Below, in pieces: positions 2 to 54,022 of a stretch of 64,000 bases of DNA; within the stretch, counting starts at the first letter, position 1; each line of letters starts with the position of its first letter. The translations under genes were made by a program, and so were the position numbers. Origin of the DNA: a virus; the IMG/VR virus record IMGVR_UViG_3300021960_000023, positions 1 through 64,000 of that record, one strand, 5' to 3'. Under the pieces are notes generated by a model. The model did not search any database. It saw nothing but the letters and a program-made list of their open reading frames with translations, and was not told where the DNA came from.

Positions 2-217
2 AGATGGAAATGTGTAGGAACAGAAGGTTCTAATACAGCATACGAAGAACAAACATGGCCAGTAGCTTTTAATAACACAGGAAGCTTTACTTCTCTTGAT
101 TCTTTAGACATAGATATAGTTCTAGGCTGGATAATGAGTGAAGCAGATAAAGACAATCAAGTAAGAAAAGTTGCAGCAAAAATAGAAATAATTAAGAACA
201 CAAAGAGTATAGGATAG
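2..217 (+). CDS. C-terminal part of a hypothetical virion protein (5' truncated)
   Basis: An open frame runs from the window edge to a TAG at 215-217 and encodes about 71 residues ending in IEIIKNTKSIG. It stands directly upstream of the tail-fibre genes and is separated by only 4 bases from the next ATG, so it probably belongs to the same late structural operon. No family is recognisable from this fragment; a tail or baseplate role is inferred from position only. Confidence 0.55.
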   Translation, partial: RWKCVGTEGSNTAYEEQTWPVAFNNTGSFTSLDSLDIDIVLGWIMSEADKDNQVRKVAAKIEIIKNTKSIG

Positions 218-221
218 ATAA

Positions 222-368
222 ATGGCAAATACAAAAGTACCAGCAAGATTAATATCGTCAACCACACTCACAGTAGTGGCAAGGTCGGCAGGAATTAATA
301 TAACATTAACAAACGGTATATTAGCCGTAATAGCACGCTCAGGAACAATCAGCGTAGGGGTAACATAA
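222..368 (+). CDS. Small tail-fibre-associated protein (48 aa)
   Basis: A 48-residue frame starts MANTKVPARLISSTTL and ends VGVT, then overlaps nothing and is followed 1 base later by the next ATG. The opening MANTKVPARL resembles the N-termini of the downstream adhesins (MATKVKTGVIDSS, MALTKVPSNL), so it may be a fibre N-terminal module standing alone or a remnant of one. Tight packing between two coding regions supports translation. Confidence 0.55.
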   Translation: MANTKVPARLISSTTLTVVARSAGINITLTNGILAVIARSGTISVGVT

Positions 369-369
369 A

Positions 370-1065
370 ATGGCAGATAGAATACCATTAATAGTTGATT
401 CAAGTTCGAATCAGGTAAAAGAATTACCAGCAGGTGATAGTATTATCCTTGCTGATAATGAAAAATTAAAAGTAGGAACAGGTTCAGATTTAAATGTTTA
501 TCATGATGGATCTAATTCTTTTATAGATGAAACAGGTACAGGTAATTTGTATGTTAAATCTAACTCAGTGTTATATGCAATGGGAGATGATATTAGATTA
601 ATGAATGCCGGAAACAGTGAGACTTTACTTCAAGCTGTTGTTAACGGGGCAGTTACATTAAGGTATGATAATACTGCTAGAATAGCTACAACAGCCACAG
701 GCATAGATGTTACAGGTAATGTTATATATTCAGGTGGTTCATTAACAGTAGAAGCTGCATTAACAGATGGTTCTACTGTATCTTGGGATGTAACTGCAAG
801 TCCAGTTGCAAAGGTAACACTTGCCGGAAATAGAACATTAGCTTTACCTTCGAATCCCTTAGGTTCAGGTCAATATGCTTCTTTATTAATTATTCAAGAT
901 GGAACTGGTTCACGAACATTAACATGGAACGCAGCATATGAATTCAAAGATGATACCGCTCCAACACTTACAACAACAGCCAGCAAAGGTGACCTATTTA
1001 CCTTTAGGTATAATGGCGCTAAATGGCTAGAGGTTGGGAGAAATCAAAACCTCTCATTGAGTTAA
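370..1065 (+). CDS. Tail-fibre-like structural protein
   Basis: The 231-aa product contains the marine fibre motif LKVGTGSDLNVYHDGSNSF followed by GTGNLYVKS, typical of repetitive shaft regions of uncultured marine T4-like phage fibres. The C-terminal half (LTWNAAYEFKDD, FTFRYNGAKWLEVGR) looks like a small beta-rich receptor-facing or trimerisation domain. It sits at the start of a six-gene adhesin array. No enzymatic motif is visible; the role in host binding is inferred. Confidence 0.7.
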   Translation: MADRIPLIVDSSSNQVKELPAGDSIILADNEKLKVGTGSDLNVYHDGSNSFIDETGTGNLYVKSNSVLYAMGDDIRLMNAGNSETLLQAVVNGAVTLRYDNTARIATTATGIDVTGNVIYSGGSLTVEAALTDGSTVSWDVTASPVAKVTLAGNRTLALPSNPLGSGQYASLLIIQDGTGSRTLTWNAAYEFKDDTAPTLTTTASKGDLFTFRYNGAKWLEVGRNQNLSLS

Positions 1066-1069
1066 TCAT

Positions 1070-2512
1070 ATGATAGATGCAGGAATAGGAGCAAACTCCG
1101 CCTCAGATACTAGGTATGGTATTGATAATTCTTTGAAGTTAAACTCAGCAAATTCAGAGTATTTATATGAAACCAGAGATGCTTCAGGTTCAGATTGGAA
1201 CAGGCTTTTATGGACTGCTTCTATGTGGGTTAAACATATGCCAACAGAAAGTTCAGCCACTTCTCCAAAAGAAAGAATGTTTGGTGCAGCAGATGCTAAT
1301 AATGATTTTGATATTCGTTTTAGAGGACAACCAATAGGATTTAGAAATAATTCAGATGTTGATGGTGTAGCTGAACTTAGAACAACAGCAGTGTATAGAG
1401 ATTATAATGCTTGGATGCACATTGTAGCAGTATGGGATACAGCCAATAGCACAGCAGGTAATAGAATGAGACTGTATGTAAATGGAGAAGAAGTAACTGG
1501 TTTTTCTACAGATACTCAACCTAGTCAAAACGAAAAATCTGTTTGGGGTAAAAAGAACGATGGTACAGACGGTAATGTTACTCACACTATTGGGGCTTAT
1601 TACAATTCTTCATCAGGTTTTGCACAAGGATTTAATGGTTATATGGCTGAAGTACACTGGGTTGAAGGACAAGCATTAGCCCCATCAGATTTTGGTGAGT
1701 TTGATACTGGTATTTGGATACCTAAAGAATACACAGGTTCTTATGGTACTAATGGTTTTTATTTAAAATTTGAAGATAGCTCTAATTTAGGTTTAGATTC
1801 AAGTGGTAATTCACATAACTGGAGTTTAAGTAACTTAACAGCAGCAGACCAAGCTACGGACACGCCTACTAATAATTTTGCTACATTAAATCAGCTACAT
1901 TACACAACTAAATACACAATAACTGAAGGAGGTACGAATCAAGTATCTTCTGTAAATGGATGGGGTACTAGTGTTGGATCTATAGGTGTCACATCTGGTA
2001 AATGGTATTTTGAAATAAAAACCCCGGACAATAATGGATATACTACGTTCGGTGCTATAGACGCAGATAGTATCTTGAGTCAATACCTAAATGGAGATGC
2101 TCATGCAGGAGATACTCCCTATGGCATAAGTTATTATGGTGGCAACGGCGGAATCATAGTGAATGGTTCTTACATATCAGGAACTTCTTTCTCCAGCTAT
2201 AACACTCAAATTATGGGATGTGCATTAGATTTAGATAACAATAAAATATATTTCTCTAAAAGCGGAACTTATGGAAATTCAGGGAATCCTGTAACTGGCG
2301 CAAATGGAATATCTTTACCATCAGGTGGAAGTGGTACTTGGTTTTTTTCAACTTCAACGTATGTACAACCGCTTGCTACTAACCAAGGTGGTTATACAAC
2401 TTTTTCAATCTCAAGTGCAGAAAGCGATGAAAACGGCTACGGAACTTTTGAATATGCACCGCCTACAGGCTACTACGCCTTATGCACTAAAAACTTAGCG
2501 GAGTACGGATAA
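1070..2512 (+). CDS. Tail fibre with LamG/concanavalin-like and SPRY-like domains
   Basis: The 480-aa product has two lectin-type beta-sandwich domains. Residues about 20-220 show the LamG pattern (WTASMWVK, MRLYVNGEEVTGF, FNGYMAEVHWVEGQAL). Residues about 290-470 show a B30.2/SPRY pattern (GKWYFEIKT, MGCALDLDNNKIYFSKSG). Such domains bind carbohydrate or protein surfaces, so the protein is probably a host-recognition adhesin at the fibre tip. The next gene starts at the last base of its stop codon (TAATG), which indicates translational coupling. Confidence 0.7.
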   Translation: MIDAGIGANSASDTRYGIDNSLKLNSANSEYLYETRDASGSDWNRLLWTASMWVKHMPTESSATSPKERMFGAADANNDFDIRFRGQPIGFRNNSDVDGVAELRTTAVYRDYNAWMHIVAVWDTANSTAGNRMRLYVNGEEVTGFSTDTQPSQNEKSVWGKKNDGTDGNVTHTIGAYYNSSSGFAQGFNGYMAEVHWVEGQALAPSDFGEFDTGIWIPKEYTGSYGTNGFYLKFEDSSNLGLDSSGNSHNWSLSNLTAADQATDTPTNNFATLNQLHYTTKYTITEGGTNQVSSVNGWGTSVGSIGVTSGKWYFEIKTPDNNGYTTFGAIDADSILSQYLNGDAHAGDTPYGISYYGGNGGIIVNGSYISGTSFSSYNTQIMGCALDLDNNKIYFSKSGTYGNSGNPVTGANGISLPSGGSGTWFFSTSTYVQPLATNQGGYTTFSISSAESDENGYGTFEYAPPTGYYALCTKNLAEYG

Positions 2513-3588
2513 TGGCATATACAAATATAGACGATCCATCAGCGCATTTTCAGACTACTACTTATGCCGGTGATTCTAGTAATTCTACTGTTATAACTAA
2601 TGGTGGAAATAGTGACTTAAAGCCAGATTTAGTTTGGATTAAAAATAGGACTTCATCTGGTGGTAACGTTAGTGATCATATGTTATTTAATTCAAATGTA
2701 GGCATTGGGACTGGGGCAAACTCTCCTTACCTAATGACAAATAGCAATGCACCAGAAACAACCAATTCAAATGGATTACAAGCAGTTAGCTCAAATGGGT
2801 TTACCCCAGGCTCTATGACCAGAACTAATGAAACTGGTAAGAATTTTGTAGCTTGGCAATGGAAAGCAAACGGTGGAACTACAAGTTCGAACACCGATGG
2901 AGATATAACTTCAACCGTGCAAGCTAATACTGATGCTGGGTTTAGTATCGTTACTTATCAAGGTAATACTTCTAACAACCAAACTGTTGGTCACGGCTTG
3001 GGCGCAGTTCCGAGTTGTATTATTATAAGAAATAGAACAAGAACAGAAGATTGGAGATTGAATTATAACCACGTAAACAGTGGTACAGGAATGATTAGAT
3101 TAAATAGCACAGATTCTTATAATACAACTGCTACAACCTTAATGAACGTAGCTCCAACCTCTAGTGTATTTAATATTAGTACTGATTGGTCAGTGAATGG
3201 TAACTATCCATTTGTAGCTTACTGCTGGGCAGAAAAACAAGGCTACAGCAAGTTTGGTTCGTATATCGGTAATGCAGATGCAAATGGTCCGTTTGTTTAT
3301 ACAGGCTTTAAGCCTGCTTGGGTGATGATTAAATTTAATGGTACAGATGATTGGTATATATTTGATCACAAAAGAGCAGGTTATAACCCTGAGGTTTTTA
3401 GATTAAGAGCAAATACAACAGGCGATGAAACAACGGGAACAGATAACACAGTTGATCATTTATCAAATGGATTTAAATTAAGGTTTACTGGTGGCTCTAT
3501 AAATGGTAGCGGTAGTACATACTTCTATATGGCCTTTGCAGAAAATCCATTTGTAACATCAACAGGAGTGCCAACAACGGCTAGATAA
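2512..3588 (+). CDS. Tail-fibre/adhesin protein (DUF7483-like)
   Basis: The 358-aa product has two related segments: KPDLVWIKNRTSSGGN with HMLFNSN near the N-terminus, and KPAWVMIKFNGTDDWYIFDH near residue 260. The pattern of W-I-K-N-R followed by a strand-rich stretch is familiar from marine phage fibre proteins classed as DUF7483. The C-terminus (TYFYMAFAENPF) is typical for that family. The start overlaps the previous stop codon by one base. A receptor-binding role is inferred from context. Confidence 0.6.
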   Translation: MAYTNIDDPSAHFQTTTYAGDSSNSTVITNGGNSDLKPDLVWIKNRTSSGGNVSDHMLFNSNVGIGTGANSPYLMTNSNAPETTNSNGLQAVSSNGFTPGSMTRTNETGKNFVAWQWKANGGTTSSNTDGDITSTVQANTDAGFSIVTYQGNTSNNQTVGHGLGAVPSCIIIRNRTRTEDWRLNYNHVNSGTGMIRLNSTDSYNTTATTLMNVAPTSSVFNISTDWSVNGNYPFVAYCWAEKQGYSKFGSYIGNADANGPFVYTGFKPAWVMIKFNGTDDWYIFDHKRAGYNPEVFRLRANTTGDETTGTDNTVDHLSNGFKLRFTGGSINGSGSTYFYMAFAENPFVTSTGVPTTAR

Positions 3589-3590
3589 TG

Positions 3591-3598
3591 TATAAATA
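3591..3598 (+). promoter_or_regulatory. T4-type late promoter
   Basis: An exact TATAAATA octamer lies in the gap after the 2512-3588 gene and about 22 bases before the next ATG, which has its own AGAGGA ribosome site. It matches the T4 late promoter recognised by gp55, which is encoded at 28348. Confidence 0.8.
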
Positions 3599-3619
3599 CA
3601 TATACAAAGAGGAATTAAT

Positions 3620-4216
3620 ATGTGGGCAATAGTAGAAAGCGGATCAATTACAAAAATGTATACAAGACCGCGAGCATTTAAAATAGGAAGTAATCAATAT
3701 CCTGCAAACACGATGGCATTATGGTCAGAATCGGAATTGCAGTCAATTGGTGTATATCCAGTTACAATCGACAATACCAATCTAAAAGATAAAGAATATT
3801 ATATTAACACTAATATTACATATGCAGTAGATGGTTTAACAGTGACCGGCACGTACGGAGCAGCTACGGCAATAAGTATGACAGATACTTTATTCACAGC
3901 ACAAGACGAAACAGATGGGCTTGGAACAGAAGGTGAAGTAGCAACAAGAGGATTAAAATATAATCATAAACAAATTATTAATCAACAAGCTGCTGGATTA
4001 CTACAAGACACAGATTGGATGGTAATAAGAGAAGCAGAAGGTGGAACAGCAGTACCAGGTGCTACTACAACTTGGAGAGCAGCAGTACGAACAAAAGCTA
4101 ATGCAATGCAAGTACAGATAGACGGTGCAGCAGATGTAGATGCATTAGCAGCTTTATACGTTTATAACGATGCAACTCCGCCAGTCAGACCACTTGGTGA
4201 ATTTCCAACACTATAG
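3620..4216 (+). CDS. Tail-fibre assembly chaperone-like protein
   Basis: The 198-aa product starts MWAIVESGSITKMYTRPRAF and ends in a segment (LLQDTDWMVIREAEGG, TWRAAVRTKANAM) that resembles the C-terminal DUF4376/tail-assembly chaperone region found next to fibre genes. These small proteins help fold or attach the neighbouring fibre. It is the first gene after a late promoter and stands just upstream of a large fibre gene. Substrate and mechanism are inferred from context. Confidence 0.55.
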   Translation: MWAIVESGSITKMYTRPRAFKIGSNQYPANTMALWSESELQSIGVYPVTIDNTNLKDKEYYINTNITYAVDGLTVTGTYGAATAISMTDTLFTAQDETDGLGTEGEVATRGLKYNHKQIINQQAAGLLQDTDWMVIREAEGGTAVPGATTTWRAAVRTKANAMQVQIDGAADVDALAALYVYNDATPPVRPLGEFPTL

Positions 4217-4226
4217 GAAAAAATAG

Positions 4227-6209
4227 ATGGCAACAAAAGTTAAAACAGGTGTAATAGATAGCTCAGCAATCACAAGTGCTTTAATCGCTAACGCAAGTAT
4301 TACAGCAGATGATTTACATACAACTTTAGATCTGACAGGAAAAACTGTTACGGTCGCTACAGCCTCGGCCGGAGATAATGATACCTCAGTCGCAAGTACA
4401 GCTTTTGTCTCAACAGCTATAGCTAACTTAGCTGATTCAGCACCATCTACCTTAAACACTTTAAACGAATTAGCCGCTGCGTTGGGCGACGATGCAAATT
4501 ATGCAACGACGACGACCAATGCGATAGCAGCAAAAGCGCCATTAGCAAGCCCTAGTTTAACAGGAACAGTTACAGTGACTGGTGCTTCAAGCGCTTATAA
4601 TACTTTACAGCTTACATCTAATTCTACCGGGCACGGAACAGTTATAAATTTAGGAGATACTTCTGATGCAGATTATGGAAGTATAACTCAATTTGCTTCT
4701 TCGGCTGGTGAAGGAGGAAGAATGAGATTCATTGCTGGTACAACAGAAACAATGAATTTAAGAGGGGGTAAAGTTGGCATAGGAACAAACAATCCAGCAG
4801 CTGCTAAATTAGATATAGTATCTGCAGATAATTCTAATACGATTGCCGTTGTTAATATCCAAAATAATATGGATAATAGCAGAGAAGCTTTAAGAATAAC
4901 CTCATTAGGTGATTATGATGCTCACATGAGTTTCTATGCCGCTGGTTCTACAAGTTATTGGGGCGGTTTTGGTATAGATTATTCTGATGCTGGTAAGTTT
5001 AAATTGCAGACTGATAATATATTATCTAATGGCACAAATCTCATGACTTGGGCTCGGGATAATAAAGTTGGAATTGGAACTGTAAACCCTAGTGCTCATT
5101 TACACATTGATGTGGCAACCCCAACAATTAAGCTTGGTGGTTATAGTTTTATAACAGAAGATGTAGGAGACGTAGATTCTCTTGGTCTTTGGACTCATAC
5201 GACTGAAAGCATACTTTTTGGTCAAACAGCTAATAATTTAACCTCTCACAACATAACATGTCGAATAGATAATAACGGAATTTTAAGGCCTACAAGATTT
5301 AGATTACCAGCAAGTGCACTTCCAACATCAGCGCTTTCAGTTGGTGAGTTACATGTGGACACAGGTGATAGTAATAAGGTTAAAGTGTATGATGGGTCTG
5401 CGTGGGTTAGTCTTAATAATGCTACACTTGGCGAATCAGGTAATCCTGCAGCTGATGGTGCAGCTCTGCTAGCGGCTTCTGCTGCAAATGGTGCTTATTA
5501 TTTTGACCATGATGGAACTGAGTATCAGACTTATTACATAGGTGATGTCTTAGGTGGAGGATGGCAACTTGCAATGTGCGTAACTAATGGTGCAGATAGT
5601 GGAGATACTGTGGCAGAGGCACTTGGAAGTGCTACTGGTAGAACTGATTGGTTTAATGGTGATACTACTGTTGGTTCTGGAAATACTGGTGTTAGTGCAA
5701 CAGGAACTAACTGGTTTACTGCATCTAACTCTAATGAGTTAAATGTAACATCAATGACAGGTCTTAATAAAACTAATTCAAGAGGAAGAGGTTTCTTTAA
5801 GAGTTTTACTAACATGATGATTCGACAAAATATTGGCGGAACTGTAGGATATAGAAGTTATGTTTTAAATGCATCTAATTCTTTATATAGCTGGTTTCAA
5901 ATAGCTGACCATACGGGATTTACAAATAGAACATCAAGTTCATCAACTGCAGGAAGTGGAGTAACAACTAATAATTCAACAGCAATTCGTTTAAGTAATA
6001 TAGATTTTAATTATCAATTAAGTAATGATGGAGGAAGAATAGTTACATCGGGATCTGTTTCGTCCGAATCTTCAGGTGGAATCGGCTGTCGAGTTGATGG
6101 TCACAGAGGATATGCCTGGACAGGTAATGTCGTAAATGACTATACAGCCCGATCATATTCCCTCGATGGAACGATTGATGACCACACACTATGGATATTC
6201 GTAAAATGA
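4227..6209 (+). CDS. Modular tail fibre with fibrinogen-like C-terminus
   Basis: The 660-aa product begins with a module shared with the genes at 6506 and 9093 (STAFVSTAIANLADSAPSTL, TLNELAAALGDDANY). The shaft carries two VGIGT-type repeats (VGIGTNNPAAAKLDI, VGIGTVNPSAHLHI), a mark of marine phage fibres. Residues about 415-660 resemble a fibrinogen C-terminal domain (YYIGDVLGGGWQLAMCV, then WFNGD and an aromatic-rich end), a likely glycan-binding tip. The last codons overlap the next small gene. Confidence 0.72.
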   Translation: MATKVKTGVIDSSAITSALIANASITADDLHTTLDLTGKTVTVATASAGDNDTSVASTAFVSTAIANLADSAPSTLNTLNELAAALGDDANYATTTTNAIAAKAPLASPSLTGTVTVTGASSAYNTLQLTSNSTGHGTVINLGDTSDADYGSITQFASSAGEGGRMRFIAGTTETMNLRGGKVGIGTNNPAAAKLDIVSADNSNTIAVVNIQNNMDNSREALRITSLGDYDAHMSFYAAGSTSYWGGFGIDYSDAGKFKLQTDNILSNGTNLMTWARDNKVGIGTVNPSAHLHIDVATPTIKLGGYSFITEDVGDVDSLGLWTHTTESILFGQTANNLTSHNITCRIDNNGILRPTRFRLPASALPTSALSVGELHVDTGDSNKVKVYDGSAWVSLNNATLGESGNPAADGAALLAASAANGAYYFDHDGTEYQTYYIGDVLGGGWQLAMCVTNGADSGDTVAEALGSATGRTDWFNGDTTVGSGNTGVSATGTNWFTASNSNELNVTSMTGLNKTNSRGRGFFKSFTNMMIRQNIGGTVGYRSYVLNASNSLYSWFQIADHTGFTNRTSSSSTAGSGVTTNNSTAIRLSNIDFNYQLSNDGGRIVTSGSVSSESSGGIGCRVDGHRGYAWTGNVVNDYTARSYSLDGTIDDHTLWIFVK

Positions 6210-24950: not shown

Positions 24951-24957
24951 TAAAGGG

Positions 24958-28192: not shown

Positions 28193-28285
28193 TGTACCTC
28201 TTCCCTCGAAAGTACTCTATTATTATATCATATAAACTACGATTTGTAAACCTTTTTTTTAATTATTTTTAAATTAATTTAATGG

Positions 28286-31875: not shown

Positions 31876-31918
31876 CGTAACGTCACAGCCACGTCACAAA
31901 TACGTAACGAATCGTCAC
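31876..31918 (+). promoter_or_regulatory. Phased CGTCAC/CGTAAC repeat array (operator-like)
   Basis: CGTAAC at 31876, CGTCAC at 31881 and 31892, CGTAAC at 31903 and CGTCAC at 31913. Four of them are spaced 11, 11 and 10 bases apart, one helical turn, so they lie on one face of the DNA. The array ends 16 bases before the -35 of an early promoter. The same half-sites recur upstream of the promoters at 34233 and 53645. Confidence 0.72.
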
Positions 31919-31934
31919 AGATGCAAAATAGTTG

Positions 31935-31963
31935 TTTACATCTACCTTGAACTACGGTATAAT
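31935..31963 (+). promoter_or_regulatory. Early promoter for the VWA-metalloprotease gene
   Basis: TTTACA and TATAAT with a 17-bp spacer and extended -10 TACGGTATAAT. A strong AAGGAG site precedes ATG 31996. Confidence 0.88.
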
Positions 31964-31995
31964 ACATCTATACTTTAAAAAAATAAGGAGTTTTA

Positions 31996-34188
31996 ATGTT
32001 ACAATCATCTATATTACCAAAATTACTAGCTAAGGAAGATATTACTATTAGACATGGTAATTATCATACTGCCTGGTTCGATGTAAAAAATAGGGTCCTA
32101 GGATTACCTAATTGGAAAGATATGGGCAAAGACGTTTATGATCTATTATGTGGTCATGAAGTTGGTCATGCATTATTTACTCCAGAGTCTGGATGGCATG
32201 ATAGCCCAGAAAAATTAAAAGGCGCTCCTAGATCTTACTTAAATGTTATCGAAGATGCTAGAATAGAAAGAGAAATTAGAAACACATATCCTGGTTTAAT
32301 CGCTGCAATGCAACGTGGTTATAACCAATTACTTAAAAGAGATTTCTTTGGTGATATCTATAATTTAGAATGGGACCAAATTAAACTTATTGATAAGATT
32401 AACCTTAAAACAAAATTAGGTTCTATGATCGAAGTTCCATTTAATGATGTAGAACAAGGATTTTTAGATAGAGCTTTTACCAACAAAACTTGGGATCAAG
32501 TAGTTCAGTTAGCAAAAGACGTCCTAAAGTATACTCAAGAAAACCAAGACGAGCTATTACAGCCACAGGAATTACCGCAAGTTGTTCAAGACGTTATGGA
32601 TAAAATCGAAGAGATGGAAGATAACCAAGAGCAAGAAGATCAGGGCCCACAAGGCGGTCATGATGATTATCCAGCAGACCAGGAAGAAGCTCCAGAGTCT
32701 AATGAAGGTGAAGAAGAAGTTCAGAATGCAAACGCAGAAGAATCTGAAGAAGAATCCCTAGAATCATTAAAAGAAAAATTAGAAGAATTATCTTCTCGAC
32801 CAGAATATCAACCAGATGAAGATATATCTGTTACAGATGAAACCTATAGATCTAAAGAAGAAGAGTTATTGGATCTCGGCAGAGATGGTAGTGGTTATAC
32901 TACAATAAACGAACTAAGACCTTTTCATATTGAAAATGCTGTTATTGGATATGACCAATTAACAAAAGAAAGAGAATGGAAAGCTAAGTACTTTGAAGAA
33001 GATCTAACTAAGGATGTAGAAAATTTTAAAAAGTATGTTAAAGAAACTAAAAGATCTGTTAACTTTGCAGTTAAAGAATTCGAGCAAAGAAAGGCAGCGT
33101 TTAGATATCAAAGAGCAACTACTGCCAAAACCGGTAGATTGGATGTTGGCAAGCTTTGGTCTTACAAAACTTCAGAAGATATATTCTCTCAAGTAACTAC
33201 CTTAGCAGATGCTAAAAATCACGGTATGATTATGCTTGTAGATTATTCTGGTTCAATGGCTAATTCAATGCCTTATGTTATGGATCAGCTTTTACATATG
33301 GTTCACTTCTGTAAAGCTATTAATATCCCATTCGATGTTTATGGATTTACTACACAAAACTCAGCATTCAAATATGACGAAACTACATTTACTAGCCAAA
33401 TTCAAGATGGCGATTTAGACATGGGTGATCTTTCTATGCCTTTAGTTTGTTCTTCAAGCTTTAATAAAAAACAATTTACAGATGCTATCTATCACATGTA
33501 CTTAAGAAAGGCAGATGATTACTGGGGATCAAGAGCACCTTTAGCTAAAAGCGAAGAGTATGGCGGCACTCCACTAGATCAAGCGCTAGTGGTATCTCAC
33601 CACTTGGTTAAAGAGTTTAAGAATAAGCATAGAGTAGAAAAAATGAATTTCGTTACTTTTACAGATGGCGATTCAGGAACTATGCATGCAATCCAAGACG
33701 AAAAGATGGCAAGCAAAAAAGTTAGTTCTAGAAGTTATAGAGGCGAAAGAATTATTATTATAAACAAAAAAAGAATAGAGCTAAATAGCTATAGAGCTAC
33801 TGAGGATCTTCTTCAAAATATGGCTAAGACCCTAAACGTAAAAACAATGGGCTTTTTTATGGCAGATGATGCTCATCACTTTAGACAAAGAGTTGGTATG
33901 CTAGCACAATACTGTGATCAAGATATCTATCATAATGAAGATTTTAGAAAAGAATGTACTAAAGAATTTACTAAAAACAAATGCATCCACAAACCGAATG
34001 CTTTTGGATATGATAACTACTACTTGCTTAAAGGTGGTAAAACTCTATCTGCAGAGAATGGTGAATTCGAAGAAAAGGTTACAGAAGATATGTCAGATGC
34101 TCAGATCAGAACAGCGTTTAAGAAGTTTAGCAAAGGTAAGAAAACCAATAAGGTTCTTATGACATCCATTGGTCAAGCAGTTGCTTAA
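31996..34188 (+). CDS. CobT-like protein with HExxH metallopeptidase and VWA domains
   Basis: The 730-aa product has an N-terminal zinc-protease motif LCGHEVGHALFTP at residues 52-64 and a helper YLNVIEDARIEREIR near 80-95. An acidic, low-complexity middle (residues about 200-270, Glu/Asn-rich) follows. The C-terminal VWA domain near 408 has a complete MIDAS start VDYSGSM and a later FTDGDSG. VWA proteins of this type pair with MoxR AAA+ ATPases such as CobS, and that partner is the next gene. Cobaltochelatase activity is unlikely because no other cobalamin gene is near; a chaperone or protease role is inferred. Confidence 0.8.
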   Translation: MLQSSILPKLLAKEDITIRHGNYHTAWFDVKNRVLGLPNWKDMGKDVYDLLCGHEVGHALFTPESGWHDSPEKLKGAPRSYLNVIEDARIEREIRNTYPGLIAAMQRGYNQLLKRDFFGDIYNLEWDQIKLIDKINLKTKLGSMIEVPFNDVEQGFLDRAFTNKTWDQVVQLAKDVLKYTQENQDELLQPQELPQVVQDVMDKIEEMEDNQEQEDQGPQGGHDDYPADQEEAPESNEGEEEVQNANAEESEEESLESLKEKLEELSSRPEYQPDEDISVTDETYRSKEEELLDLGRDGSGYTTINELRPFHIENAVIGYDQLTKEREWKAKYFEEDLTKDVENFKKYVKETKRSVNFAVKEFEQRKAAFRYQRATTAKTGRLDVGKLWSYKTSEDIFSQVTTLADAKNHGMIMLVDYSGSMANSMPYVMDQLLHMVHFCKAINIPFDVYGFTTQNSAFKYDETTFTSQIQDGDLDMGDLSMPLVCSSSFNKKQFTDAIYHMYLRKADDYWGSRAPLAKSEEYGGTPLDQALVVSHHLVKEFKNKHRVEKMNFVTFTDGDSGTMHAIQDEKMASKKVSSRSYRGERIIIINKKRIELNSYRATEDLLQNMAKTLNVKTMGFFMADDAHHFRQRVGMLAQYCDQDIYHNEDFRKECTKEFTKNKCIHKPNAFGYDNYYLLKGGKTLSAENGEFEEKVTEDMSDAQIRTAFKKFSKGKKTNKVLMTSIGQAVA

Positions 34189-34198
34189 TCGAAAAGTT

Positions 34199-34228
34199 AC
34201 GTCACAATTTCGTGAACTTTTCAAATTA
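34199..34228 (+). promoter_or_regulatory. Conserved 30-bp element upstream of the cobS-like promoter
   Basis: Starts ACGTCACAATTTCGTGAA and ends CTTTTCAAATTA. It matches the element at 53601-53630 at 27 of 30 positions. It contains CGTCAC and CGTGAA half-sites 11 bases apart and ends 4 bases before the -35 hexamer. Confidence 0.78.
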
Positions 34229-34232
34229 GGGG

Positions 34233-34261
34233 TTTACATCCCCTTAAAAATACGGTATAAT
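34233..34261 (+). promoter_or_regulatory. Early promoter for cobS-like gene
   Basis: TTTACA and TATAAT with a 17-bp spacer, extended -10 TACGGTATAAT. The ribosome site AAGGAG lies before ATG 34297. Confidence 0.88.
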
Positions 34262-34296: not shown

Positions 34297-35424
34297 ATGA
34301 ATAACATGAAAATATCAACCCAAAGAATCTTAGAAGAAATTTCTAATAAGTTTCCAGGCCAAACGGATTTCCGTAGAGCCATAATCGAAGACGTGGCAAA
34401 ATCCATGGGCTTTACCGCTAAGGATTTTTATCCTTTACTTTCTTCTGACAACAGAGTTAAGATCGGTACTTATTCCCTAGAAGGATTATTACCAGAAGCA
34501 GCTCCGGCAGCTATGGACCAGGTCCCAGCTACTGCGGCTCAAATGCAATCTATTACAAGCGATGAAAGAACTTTCGCTACAGTGGATCCTACATTCGTCC
34601 CATGGGGTTCTTTTAAAGATGTTACCCAGATTATTAAATCTGAAATGTTTTATCCTACTTACGTTTCTGGCTTATCCGGAAATGGTAAAACTTTTATGAT
34701 CGAGCAAGCTTGTGCTAAGCTCGGCAAAGAATTCATTAGAGTTCAAATCAATCCAGAAACGGATGAAGATGATTTACTTGGTGGATTTAGATTAATTAAC
34801 GGCGAAACAGTTTTCGCTAAAGGCCCAGTTCTAAAAGCAATGGAATCCGGTGCAATACTTTTACTCGATGAGATCGATAGAGCTACCAACAAGATCATGT
34901 GTCTTCAAGGTATCTTAGAAGGCAAACCAGTACTTGTTAAAAAGACTGGTGAAACAATTACACCTAAAAAAGGTTTCAACGTATTCGCTACTGCCAATAC
35001 TAAAGGCAAAGGTTCAGACGATGGTAGATTTACCGCAGCTAGTATCTTAGATGATGCTTTCTTAGAAAGATTTACTATCTCAGTAGATATGCAATTCCCT
35101 TCAGTTTCTGTAGAGAAAAGAATTCTACAAAAACATATGGATAAATTTGATACCCAAGATACAGAGTTTGTAACCAAGCTTGTTACTTGGGCAGATATTA
35201 TCCGTAAAACATTTTACGATGATGGCGTAGACGAAGTTATTTCTACTAGAAGACTTTGCCACGTTGTCCAAACATTCTCGATCTTTAAAGACAAAATGAA
35301 ATCAATCGATCTTTGTATTTCTAGATTCGACGAAGATACAAAAATAGCTTTCTTGGATCTCTATACAAAAGTAGATTCAGGGGTAGAGCTAGAAATACCA
35401 GGAGATGAAGATGCCCAAATCTAA
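34297..35424 (+). CDS. cobS: CobS-like MoxR-family AAA+ ATPase
   Basis: The 375-aa product has Walker A SGLSGNGKTFMIEQ near residue 129, Walker B AILLLDEIDRA near 190, sensor ATANTKGKG near 232, and an arginine-finger stretch DDAFLERFTIS. This is the cobS gene known from cyanophages, whose role there is not settled. The adjacent VWA/HExxH gene is its probable partner. Both have their own promoter with the same phased upstream motif. Confidence 0.85.
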   Translation: MNNMKISTQRILEEISNKFPGQTDFRRAIIEDVAKSMGFTAKDFYPLLSSDNRVKIGTYSLEGLLPEAAPAAMDQVPATAAQMQSITSDERTFATVDPTFVPWGSFKDVTQIIKSEMFYPTYVSGLSGNGKTFMIEQACAKLGKEFIRVQINPETDEDDLLGGFRLINGETVFAKGPVLKAMESGAILLLDEIDRATNKIMCLQGILEGKPVLVKKTGETITPKKGFNVFATANTKGKGSDDGRFTAASILDDAFLERFTISVDMQFPSVSVEKRILQKHMDKFDTQDTEFVTKLVTWADIIRKTFYDDGVDEVISTRRLCHVVQTFSIFKDKMKSIDLCISRFDEDTKIAFLDLYTKVDSGVELEIPGDEDAQI

Positions 35425-45065: not shown

Positions 45066-45359
45066 ATGGGAATACAAGTACTAGGTGATAATGTTTTAAT
45101 CGCCGAAACAGAAAAAGAAGAACAAACAGCAGGTGGGATTATTCTTACTGAAGCTATTGATAAAGGTAATAAACCAGGATTGGTATTAGCAATTGGTGAT
45201 TATATCCAACAAGATAATGCAGATCCAGAAAACGTATTTGCTAAGATAGAACCAGGAAACAGAGTGTTTGTTAAATGGTCAGAGGCAATGCCAGTTAACG
45301 TCGAAGGACAAGCTGCGGTATTAATAGATCGAAATCACATCAAAGCGATATTAAGTTAA
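45066..45359 (+). CDS. GroES-like co-chaperonin
   Basis: The 97-aa product has the GroES fold: IQVLGDNVLIAETEKEEQTA, the mobile loop AGGIILTEA, and C-terminal AAVLIDRNHIKAIL. T4 replaces GroES with gp31 to fold gp23; this protein may do the same with the host GroEL. ATTTAGGAGAA precedes its ATG. Confidence 0.9.
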   Translation: MGIQVLGDNVLIAETEKEEQTAGGIILTEAIDKGNKPGLVLAIGDYIQQDNADPENVFAKIEPGNRVFVKWSEAMPVNVEGQAAVLIDRNHIKAILS

Positions 45360-49727: not shown

Positions 49728-49979
49728 ATGCCAAGTATAAATTTAATGCCTAGGAAAAGACATCCTAAGGATAAAAGACCTTCTAGCCCAATGCCATTCG
49801 ATATTGCGTTAAGAAAGTTTAGAAAGGCCTGCGATAGAGCAGGTATTGTTAACGAAGTTCGTAAAAGAGAATTTTATGAAAAACCAACCGCAAAGCGCAA
49901 ACGTAAAAAAGCAGAGGCAGTAGCCCGAACCAGAAAAGAAGAGCGTATGAATAAACTAGGACCAGCAAGGAGATATTAA
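49728..49979 (+). CDS. rpsU: Ribosomal protein bS21
   Basis: The 83-aa basic product has the S21 core: [20 protein letters not shown] followed by [20 protein letters not shown]. bS21 sits on the 30S platform and helps choose mRNAs. Phage copies are known in SAR11 and other phages and may retune host ribosomes. It is coupled to uvsX by a 1-base gap. Confidence 0.92.
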
Positions 49980-53564: not shown

Positions 53565-53600
53565 AAGCCAGGTAGGAATTCTCTTATCTGGCTTTTTTTT
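53565..53600 (+). terminator. Rho-independent terminator after the porin gene
   Basis: GCCAGGTA, a 10-base loop and TATCTGGC form an 8-bp stem with one G-U pair, extended by AA/TT and followed by eight T. Confidence 0.92.
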
Positions 53601-53630
53601 ACGTCACGATTACGTGAATTTTTCAAATTA
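53601..53630 (+). promoter_or_regulatory. Conserved 30-bp element, second copy
   Basis: Starts ACGTCACGATTACGTGAA and ends TTTTTCAAATTA. It matches the element at 34199-34228 at 27 of 30 positions, with CGTCAC and CGTGAA half-sites 11 bases apart, 14 bases before the -35. Confidence 0.78.
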
Positions 53631-53644
53631 ATTGCAATTAGGGG

Positions 53645-53673
53645 TTTACAAGCCTCCTCTTTTATGGTATAAT
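53645..53673 (+). promoter_or_regulatory. Early promoter for the 53708 operon
   Basis: TTTACA and TATAAT, 17-bp spacer, extended -10 TATGGTATAAT. ATAGGAGTT precedes ATG 53708. Confidence 0.9.
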
Positions 53674-53707: not shown

Positions 53708-54022
53708 ATGAAAAAAGCAAAATCAACTTACAACGGACTTAACTGGGATACCACCGGTAAGATTGCGGTTGAGATAAATGGCCTTGATAACATGCAAGAT
53801 CTAAACGATATAATTGCAGTTCTGAAAGCTAAACAAAAAGCCCTAAGAAATGAATTGGCTAGAACAGCTAGATCCCAATTCTCTATTGGTGATAAAGTTT
53901 CAGTTAAAGCCAAAGGCAGAATCTTAAAAGGTTCTATTATGGAAATTAAAATAAAAAATGCTACCGTTAAAATTAACGACATTCTTTATAATGTTCCACT
54001 ATCAATTATGGAGGCAGCGTAA
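53708..54022 (+). CDS. KOW/SH3-like small protein
   Basis: The 104-aa product has a helical middle (LNDIIAVLKAKQKALRNELA) and a C-terminal beta part FSIGDKVSVKAKGRILKGSI, with YNVPLSIMEAA, that looks like a KOW-type barrel. It shares the phased upstream element with the cobS-like gene. It starts the early small-gene operon 53708-54941. The stop overlaps the next ATG (TAATG). Confidence 0.5.
   Translation: MKKAKSTYNGLNWDTTGKIAVEINGLDNMQDLNDIIAVLKAKQKALRNELARTARSQFSIGDKVSVKAKGRILKGSIMEIKIKNATVKINDILYNVPLSIMEAA

Follow-up and report, generated by a model that had tools for sequence, protein, structure and literature searches.

In marine T4-like phages of bacteria, the group to which the virus studied here belongs, a conserved and helically phased element, regulatory to judge by its sequence, marks a distinct class of promoters. 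The reading that we prefer, with a probability of roughly 0.55, is that an activator of the OmpR/PhoB type, most likely a sensor-controlled response regulator of the host, uses the element as its tandem box and would in this way drive a small phage regulon. The window, which is the whole stretch of 64,000 nt that was analysed, forms part of a virus record of 130,478 bp, and the remaining record was scanned too.

An upstream tandem element at five promoters

An earlier note on this DNA had described four CGTCAC half-sites, 10-11 bp apart, before the promoter of the VWA (cobT-like) gene. Four half-sites are present there at steps of 11, 11 and 10 bp, but the third reads CGTAAC (Table 1). An extra CGTAAC at 31876 overlaps this array, whose final half-site ends 16 bp upstream of the -35 box. 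As the note had reported, the 30-mers at 34199-34228 and 53601-53630, which precede the cobS-like gene and the 53708 operon, are identical at 27 of 30 positions, and in both of them CGTCAC and CGTGAA start 11 bp apart. The record of 130,478 bp has two copies of a composite pattern, TTACGTCACNNTTNCGTGAA, and none of its reversed control; a relaxed tandem was also found at 88467 (step of 11 bp) and at 89158, before two strong promoters beyond the window. The regulon of three promoters proposed at first thus keeps all three members, but the record holds five, with the addition of promoters 88499 and 89204.

Strong promoters were taken as matches to TT[TG]AC[AT]-N17-TATAAT. The element lies before five of the 23 such promoters in the whole record, always with an intact TTTACA as the -35 box, and the earlier statement that the remaining ones lack it was borne out for the 10 others in the window and the 18 others record-wide. 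The hexamer CGTCAC by itself is not enriched in the window (8 observed against 7.85 expected); the excess over chance lies in the 11-bp tandem and its promoter position. A motif scan of the whole record gave no random genomic placement.

Two of the genes around these promoters deserve mention. The gene directly upstream of the 88467 element (L004:2716-4563, record 86616-88463) encodes a CHASE2 domain with a class III adenylate/guanylate cyclase, relatives of which are known from Pelagibacter phage HTVC008M and Methylophilales phage Melnitz. The gene downstream of promoter 89204 (L004:5364-5864, record 89264-89764) encodes a conserved protein of 166 aa with the motifs NTQYREN and YWKFKGG.

Table 1. 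Elements, promoters and genes of the five element-bearing loci (window coordinates unless stated otherwise)
Feature	Position	Strand	Remarks
Half-site array, VWA gene	31876..31918	+	CGTCAC 31881, CGTCAC 31892, CGTAAC 31903, CGTCAC 31913
VWA (cobT-like) gene promoter, TTTACA-N17-TATAAT	31935..31963	+	CGG, not TGG, before -10
VWA/peptidase (cobT-like) gene	31996..34188	+	PHROG 459, E 7e-169
Element CGTCAC-N5-CGTGAA, cobS-like gene	34200..34216	+	16 bp upstream of -35
cobS-like gene promoter, TTTACA-N17-TATAAT	34233..34261	+	CGG before -10
cobS-like AAA ATPase gene	34297..35424	+	AAA_5; PHROG 249
Terminator-like hairpin AGCCAGGTA/TATCTGGCT and T-run	53566..53600	+	Abuts the 53602 element; seen in the sequence
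Element CGTCAC-N5-CGTGAA, 53708 operon	53602..53618	+	26 bp upstream of -35
53708 operon promoter, TTTACA-N17-TATAAT	53645..53673	+	TGG before -10
104-aa gene, first in the 53708 operon	53708..54022	+	Element retained in three relatives
Promoter 88499 (record coordinates)	Element 88467-88483		Precedes a short ORF and a PNKP-like phosphatase gene
Promoter 89204 (record coordinates)	Half-sites around 89158-89194		Four GTGAC/GTCAC half-sites; precedes a 166-aa gene

Conservation in related phages

The regulon had also been called private to this phage, a description that has to be corrected because the element is common to related phages and its architecture recurs in a divergent lineage. Among relatives of the cobS-like protein the phased repeat before cobS is often kept and its letters drift, from CGTCAC-N5-CGTGAAC in close relatives to TTCACG, TGTAACA, TGTTACA or TTGTCACACAA in those farther away. 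The element is retained as well at homologues of 53708 and at close homologues of 89264. A scan of IMG/VR with CGTCACRATYWCGTGAA returned 68 matches. In low-GC phage contigs every match directly precedes a strong promoter (51 placed by script and a few, with TATACA-type -35 boxes, by eye; one match cut by a contig end was set aside), and in GC-rich contigs the matches are not promoter-associated. At cobS and cobT of the nearest named phages, Mosig and AG-345-L05, the element was not seen. Two other viral contigs (L313:219-258 and L337:2303-2341) carry four TGTCACA repeats at steps of 10-11 bp and, after them, a promoter-like sequence with TTGACT; the architecture may therefore not be confined to this phage group.

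In the bacterial genome sets tested we found no sign that the strict box serves a chromosomal regulon; the matches are only chance-like. Bacterial genome contigs gave 81 scattered matches to the strict element; of 80 bacterial matches, one lay near a promoter and 79 did not. Across 57 small gammaproteobacterial genomes the strict element was not enriched (3 matches against 7 for reversed controls), and one bacterial family had none, against about 20 controls.

Phasing relative to the -35 box

The distance between the element and the -35 box is quantised, being 15/16, 26 or 37 bp in one orientation and 9, 19/20 or 30 bp in the other, and the element never overlaps the -35 or the -10 box. Regular expressions alone gave distances of 15/16, 26 and 28 for one orientation; for the other they gave 9 (with 19/20 and more half-sites in arrays). 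We also scored 155 distinct clade promoters with the CenR matrix described below, and these fell into two groups of 45 high and 110 low scorers. In the 45 high scorers the matrix ends lie 16/17, 27, 29 (one case) and 38 bp from the -35 box, or 10, 20 and 30 bp, with a periodicity R at 10.5 bp of 0.96 and 0.98, as against 0.29-0.30 for the low scorers. Orthologous promoters differ by whole helical turns, the distance being 16 or 26 bp both at cobT and at the 53708 locus; at orthologues of the PNKP operon the element is found at 15/16, 26 or 28 bp. A scan with TGTNACACAATTGTNACA revealed the same architecture in a second lineage with TGTNACA half-sites, at 14/15, 24/25 and 36/37 bp in the opposite orientation and 8/9 and 19 bp in the same orientation, some of the promoter calls being weak, notably those of a family with a distance of 36 whose -10 box is poor.

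A phase that is fixed in both orientations argues for a protein that touches the polymerase from a set face of the helix. The offset of 6-7 bp between the orientations would point to a directional binder arranged head to tail, and not to a symmetrical dimer. The first account had left open whether the site was an operator or an activator site; the idea of a regulatory site is supported, and the phasing, together with a position at -50 to -90 and clear of the core promoter, favours an activator over a repressor.

These data also bear on two explanations that need no regulator. Functionless similarity, arising by chance or by common descent of duplicated promoter DNA, might be read from the cobS and 53708 elements, which at 27 of 30 resemble a recent copy, and from the unenriched hexamer. 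However, the element is kept at orthologous promoters of divergent phages despite 10-bp jumps and orientation flips, and the matrix threshold is reached by 29% of clade promoters against 1.3% of random 70-mers; the phasing and conservation refute this explanation as far as sequence can, and we regard it as extremely improbable. Direct action on RNA polymerase, with the element serving as an UP element or as phased bent DNA, is also quite improbable, if somewhat less so. There are A/T runs between the element and the -35 box, and phased GTGAAAAAAA repeats in some distant lineages, as such an explanation would have it, but the conserved letters contain G and C (CGTCAC/CGTGAA, GTNAC) and are not A-tracts, the element is used in reverse with a different offset, and A/T-rich DNA also lies upstream of other strong promoters of this phage that have no such element.

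Core promoters with and without the element

The two sets of promoters differ also in their core sequences. The TG of an extended -10 box occurs in one of the five element promoters and in 17 of the 18 others of this record (Fisher p 0.0027), and four of the five have CGG before TATAAT. In the clade TG was found in 9 of 45 matrix-positive and 93 of 110 matrix-negative promoters, counts that are not phylogenetically independent. A leader with an AGGAG-type ribosome site follows all five element promoters but only 2 of the 18 others; in about half of the non-element promoters an ATG lies 6-11 bases after the -10 box, which predicts leaderless messages. As the TG of the extended -10 box is missing from most element promoters, they would depend more on an activator.

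Strong promoters of the extended -10, leaderless type were noted at 24957, 40426, 45365 and 46810 of the window, and further ones at 67147, 72019, 75645, 78236 and 91265 of the record. Two strong promoters stand back to back at 28251 (- strand) and 28285 (+ strand) of the window, about 35 bp apart, and relatives retain this divergent arrangement.

An operator for a repressor that delays the element promoters is an unlikely alternative, though one that deserves more weight than the two explanations without a regulator. Tandem operators before strong promoters do exist, and a common site would give joint timing. Against this, the element does not overlap the -35 or -10 box, it keeps its helical phase at several distances in each orientation, which fits contact with the polymerase, and repressing sites of CenR were seen to overlap the core promoter or the start (PMC9275681). 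Moreover, most element promoters are without an extended -10 box, so that repression seems less needed.

Co-variation of the cobT and cobS elements

Both a cobT-like and a cobS-like promoter were visible in 24 distinct lineages. Similarity between the regions upstream of cobT and cobS averaged 19.8 within a phage and 10.4 between phages, a difference that none of 10,000 permutations reproduced, and within a contig the two regions are closer to each other than either is to the remaining promoters (Wilcoxon p 1.4e-6). In lineage L031 the elements of cobT and cobS are exact reverse complements of each other. Among distant lineages GTNAC-N6-GTNAC was found at 9 of 52 cobT/cobS promoters as against 0 of 57 other promoters (p 0.0009), and the remaining distant lineages share upstream elements of other kinds. 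A different cobT/cobS element, the near palindrome GTTATA-N4-TATAAC (for example GTTATAAGTATATAAC), was observed in L036, L046, L048, L057, L080 and L091. The proposal of a small regulon with a common regulatory site finds strong support in this co-variation, together with the promoter-only location, the phasing and the use of either orientation.

Resemblance to known boxes

OmpR/PhoB-family response regulators bind direct repeats at a step of 10-11 bp (PMC4832192), and by that repeat step the element reads as a tandem response-regulator box of this type. PhoP recognises direct repeats of 7 bp set 4 bp apart, and its binding can grow to trimers and tetramers (PMC4832192), a behaviour that fits phage arrays of two to four half-sites.

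The closest likeness is to the CenR box of Rhodobacter sphaeroides (PMC9275681), which shares the 11-bp step of its half-sites, the letters TNAC-N6/7-GTNA and a place upstream of the -35 box. CenR is the OmpR-family response regulator of the two-component system CenKR. A matrix built from 31 published Rhodobacter sites (PMC9275681 Table 1), with no phage data used, ranked the five promoters 1, 2, 3, 4 and 7 among 261,416 positions of the record; the cobS-like element came first, the 53708 element second and the VWA array seventh (31896, - strand). Several published motifs had been tried before this matrix, and the rank result far exceeds that number of trials. None of 300 column permutations came close (in the best of them the worst promoter stood at rank 180), and the reversed matrix, spacings of 10 and 12 bp and other published consensuses did worse on the five together. 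The best readings of the five promoters score 13.4-16.1 bits, as compared to 1.2-14.3 for known CenR sites.

There are also differences. Rhodobacter promoters activated by CenR have co-directional sites in 28 of 31 cases, whereas for four of the five phage elements the reverse reading has the higher score; the box is near-symmetrical with a high score both ways, and relatives use both orientations. The phage boxes stand at phage promoters and hold up to four half-sites, and no CenR is known from the host. Activating sites of CenR lie directly upstream of the -35 box, where contact with the alpha subunit has been proposed (PMC9275681). The element may be said to work like and read like a CenR/OmpR-type box, and not to be a CenR site.

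With the consensuses of the E. coli-type Pho box, the CtrA box, the CRP site and the alphaproteobacterial LexA box, most of the five promoters ranked between the hundreds and the tens of thousands. CRP was considered because the phage CHASE2-cyclase adjoins one element, and was set aside for poor ranks and the wrong spacing. The LexA box had been considered because L030/L031 carry GTTC-N7-GTTC, and its ranks were poor too. The CreB tag, TTCAC-N6-TTCAC, is perfect in L030/L031 but only ties at rank 94 in this record, and the ChvI motif differs in its consensus. In T4, too, the middle promoters, with their MotA box and AsiA, form a class set apart by an upstream box. The MotA box, however, takes the place of the -35 box, and here TTTACA is intact at all five promoters with the box 9-37 bp farther upstream, and no such regulator is among the families found.

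Phage genes under a host regulator of the OmpR/PhoB family have precedents. In cyanophages these are PhoB boxes (PMC10976474), although theirs read PyTTAAPyPyT/A and are tied to phosphate starvation. In phages of Alphaproteobacteria they are CtrA boxes (PMC9437464), which are also direct repeats at an 11-bp step for an OmpR-family host regulator and are bound in vitro by the host protein, but read TTAA-N7-TTAA, which ranks poorly here. The E. coli OmpR site GTTACA-N4-GTTACA (PMC7315122) shares the GTNACA half-sites, clear in the TGTNACA lineage, but its step is 10 bp and not 11, and it ranked 46 to 4404.

Candidate regulators and the host

A search of the phage record by Pfam, PHROGs and protein family found no regulator of the right kind and no OmpR-type (PF00486) or Crp-type domain. 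The only transcription-class PHROG matches are a gp55-like late sigma factor and an FmdB-like small protein, to which Pfam adds a late coactivator. The 89264 product was considered as an autoregulator and rejected, its model being beta-rich and confident (pLDDT 90) with no significant match in the PDB. As Pfam and PHROGs show no regulator of this type in the record, a host protein is our first choice, and a phage protein that escapes recognition its main rival.

This rival would be a phage-encoded activator of unrecognised fold that reads the site, a functional replacement of MotA with a 'middle' promoter class of its own. Half-site letters that vary between lineages, with cobT and cobS matched within a phage, are what one would expect of a factor co-evolving with the phage, and the bacterial genomes tested gave no chromosomal use of the box. 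Furthermore, middle promoters were reported as not findable in marine T4-like phages (pelagimyophages and Melnitz), and pelagimyophages are reported to lack motA, asi and other T4 genes that govern early and middle transcription (PMC7029224, PMC9004378). The families listed above, the fold of the regulated 89264 protein and the match of the box to a bacterial response-regulator matrix all speak against it, and we hold a phage-encoded activator to be possible but clearly the less probable choice, ahead of a repressor.

The phage encodes a bS21 protein (window 49728-49979), an IscU-like NifU_N protein (L003:17149-17583) and a GroES-like protein (window 45066-45359). The best E-value of bS21 is 1e-19 in Gammaproteobacteria and 1e-9 in Alphaproteobacteria; the IscU-like protein is also nearer Gammaproteobacteria than Alphaproteobacteria, with its best match (8e-55) in a 0.9-Mb genome. 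These affinities may give a hint at the host, with the caution that phage genes need not mirror the current host, as SAR11-like tRNAs in the OM43 phage Melnitz illustrate (PMC9004378). CenKR has been reported only from some Alphaproteobacteria (PMC9275681), so that a host to which such Gammaproteobacteria-like proteins point may not have CenR itself.

Proposed mechanism and significance

In the host-regulator reading, the predicted box would be a head-to-tail tandem of half-sites with the core GTNAC/GTNA, repeated at 11 bp as for response regulators of the OmpR/PhoB type, and placed between about -50 and -90, where it would always present the same side of the helix to RNA polymerase. We infer that a protein binds it, most likely an OmpR-family regulator encoded by the host and with a specificity like that of CenR, and that the bound activator probably contacts the alpha subunit of RNA polymerase. 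Transcription would thereby be raised at the cobT-like and cobS-like genes, the 53708 operon, the PNKP-phosphatase operon and the 89264 gene.

That phages use host response-regulator boxes is already known for PhoB (PMC10976474) and CtrA (PMC9437464); in the literature searched we found no description of this class of box, of its promoter architecture or of its link to cobT and cobS. The element can be scanned for, and it joins the puzzling cobT/cobS pair to a common signal. The analysis predicts a host response regulator as the switch, and for uncultured phages the box letters might offer a clue to the host. Tentatively, and at odds that we would not put high, widespread marine T4-like phages may have replaced middle transcription of the MotA/AsiA type by a promoter class under a host OmpR-family, envelope-sensing regulator, marked by phased GTNAC tandem boxes and the lack of an extended -10 box. 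In that case cobT/cobS and a few other genes would respond to the state of the host cell, and the letters of the box would track the regulator of each host lineage.
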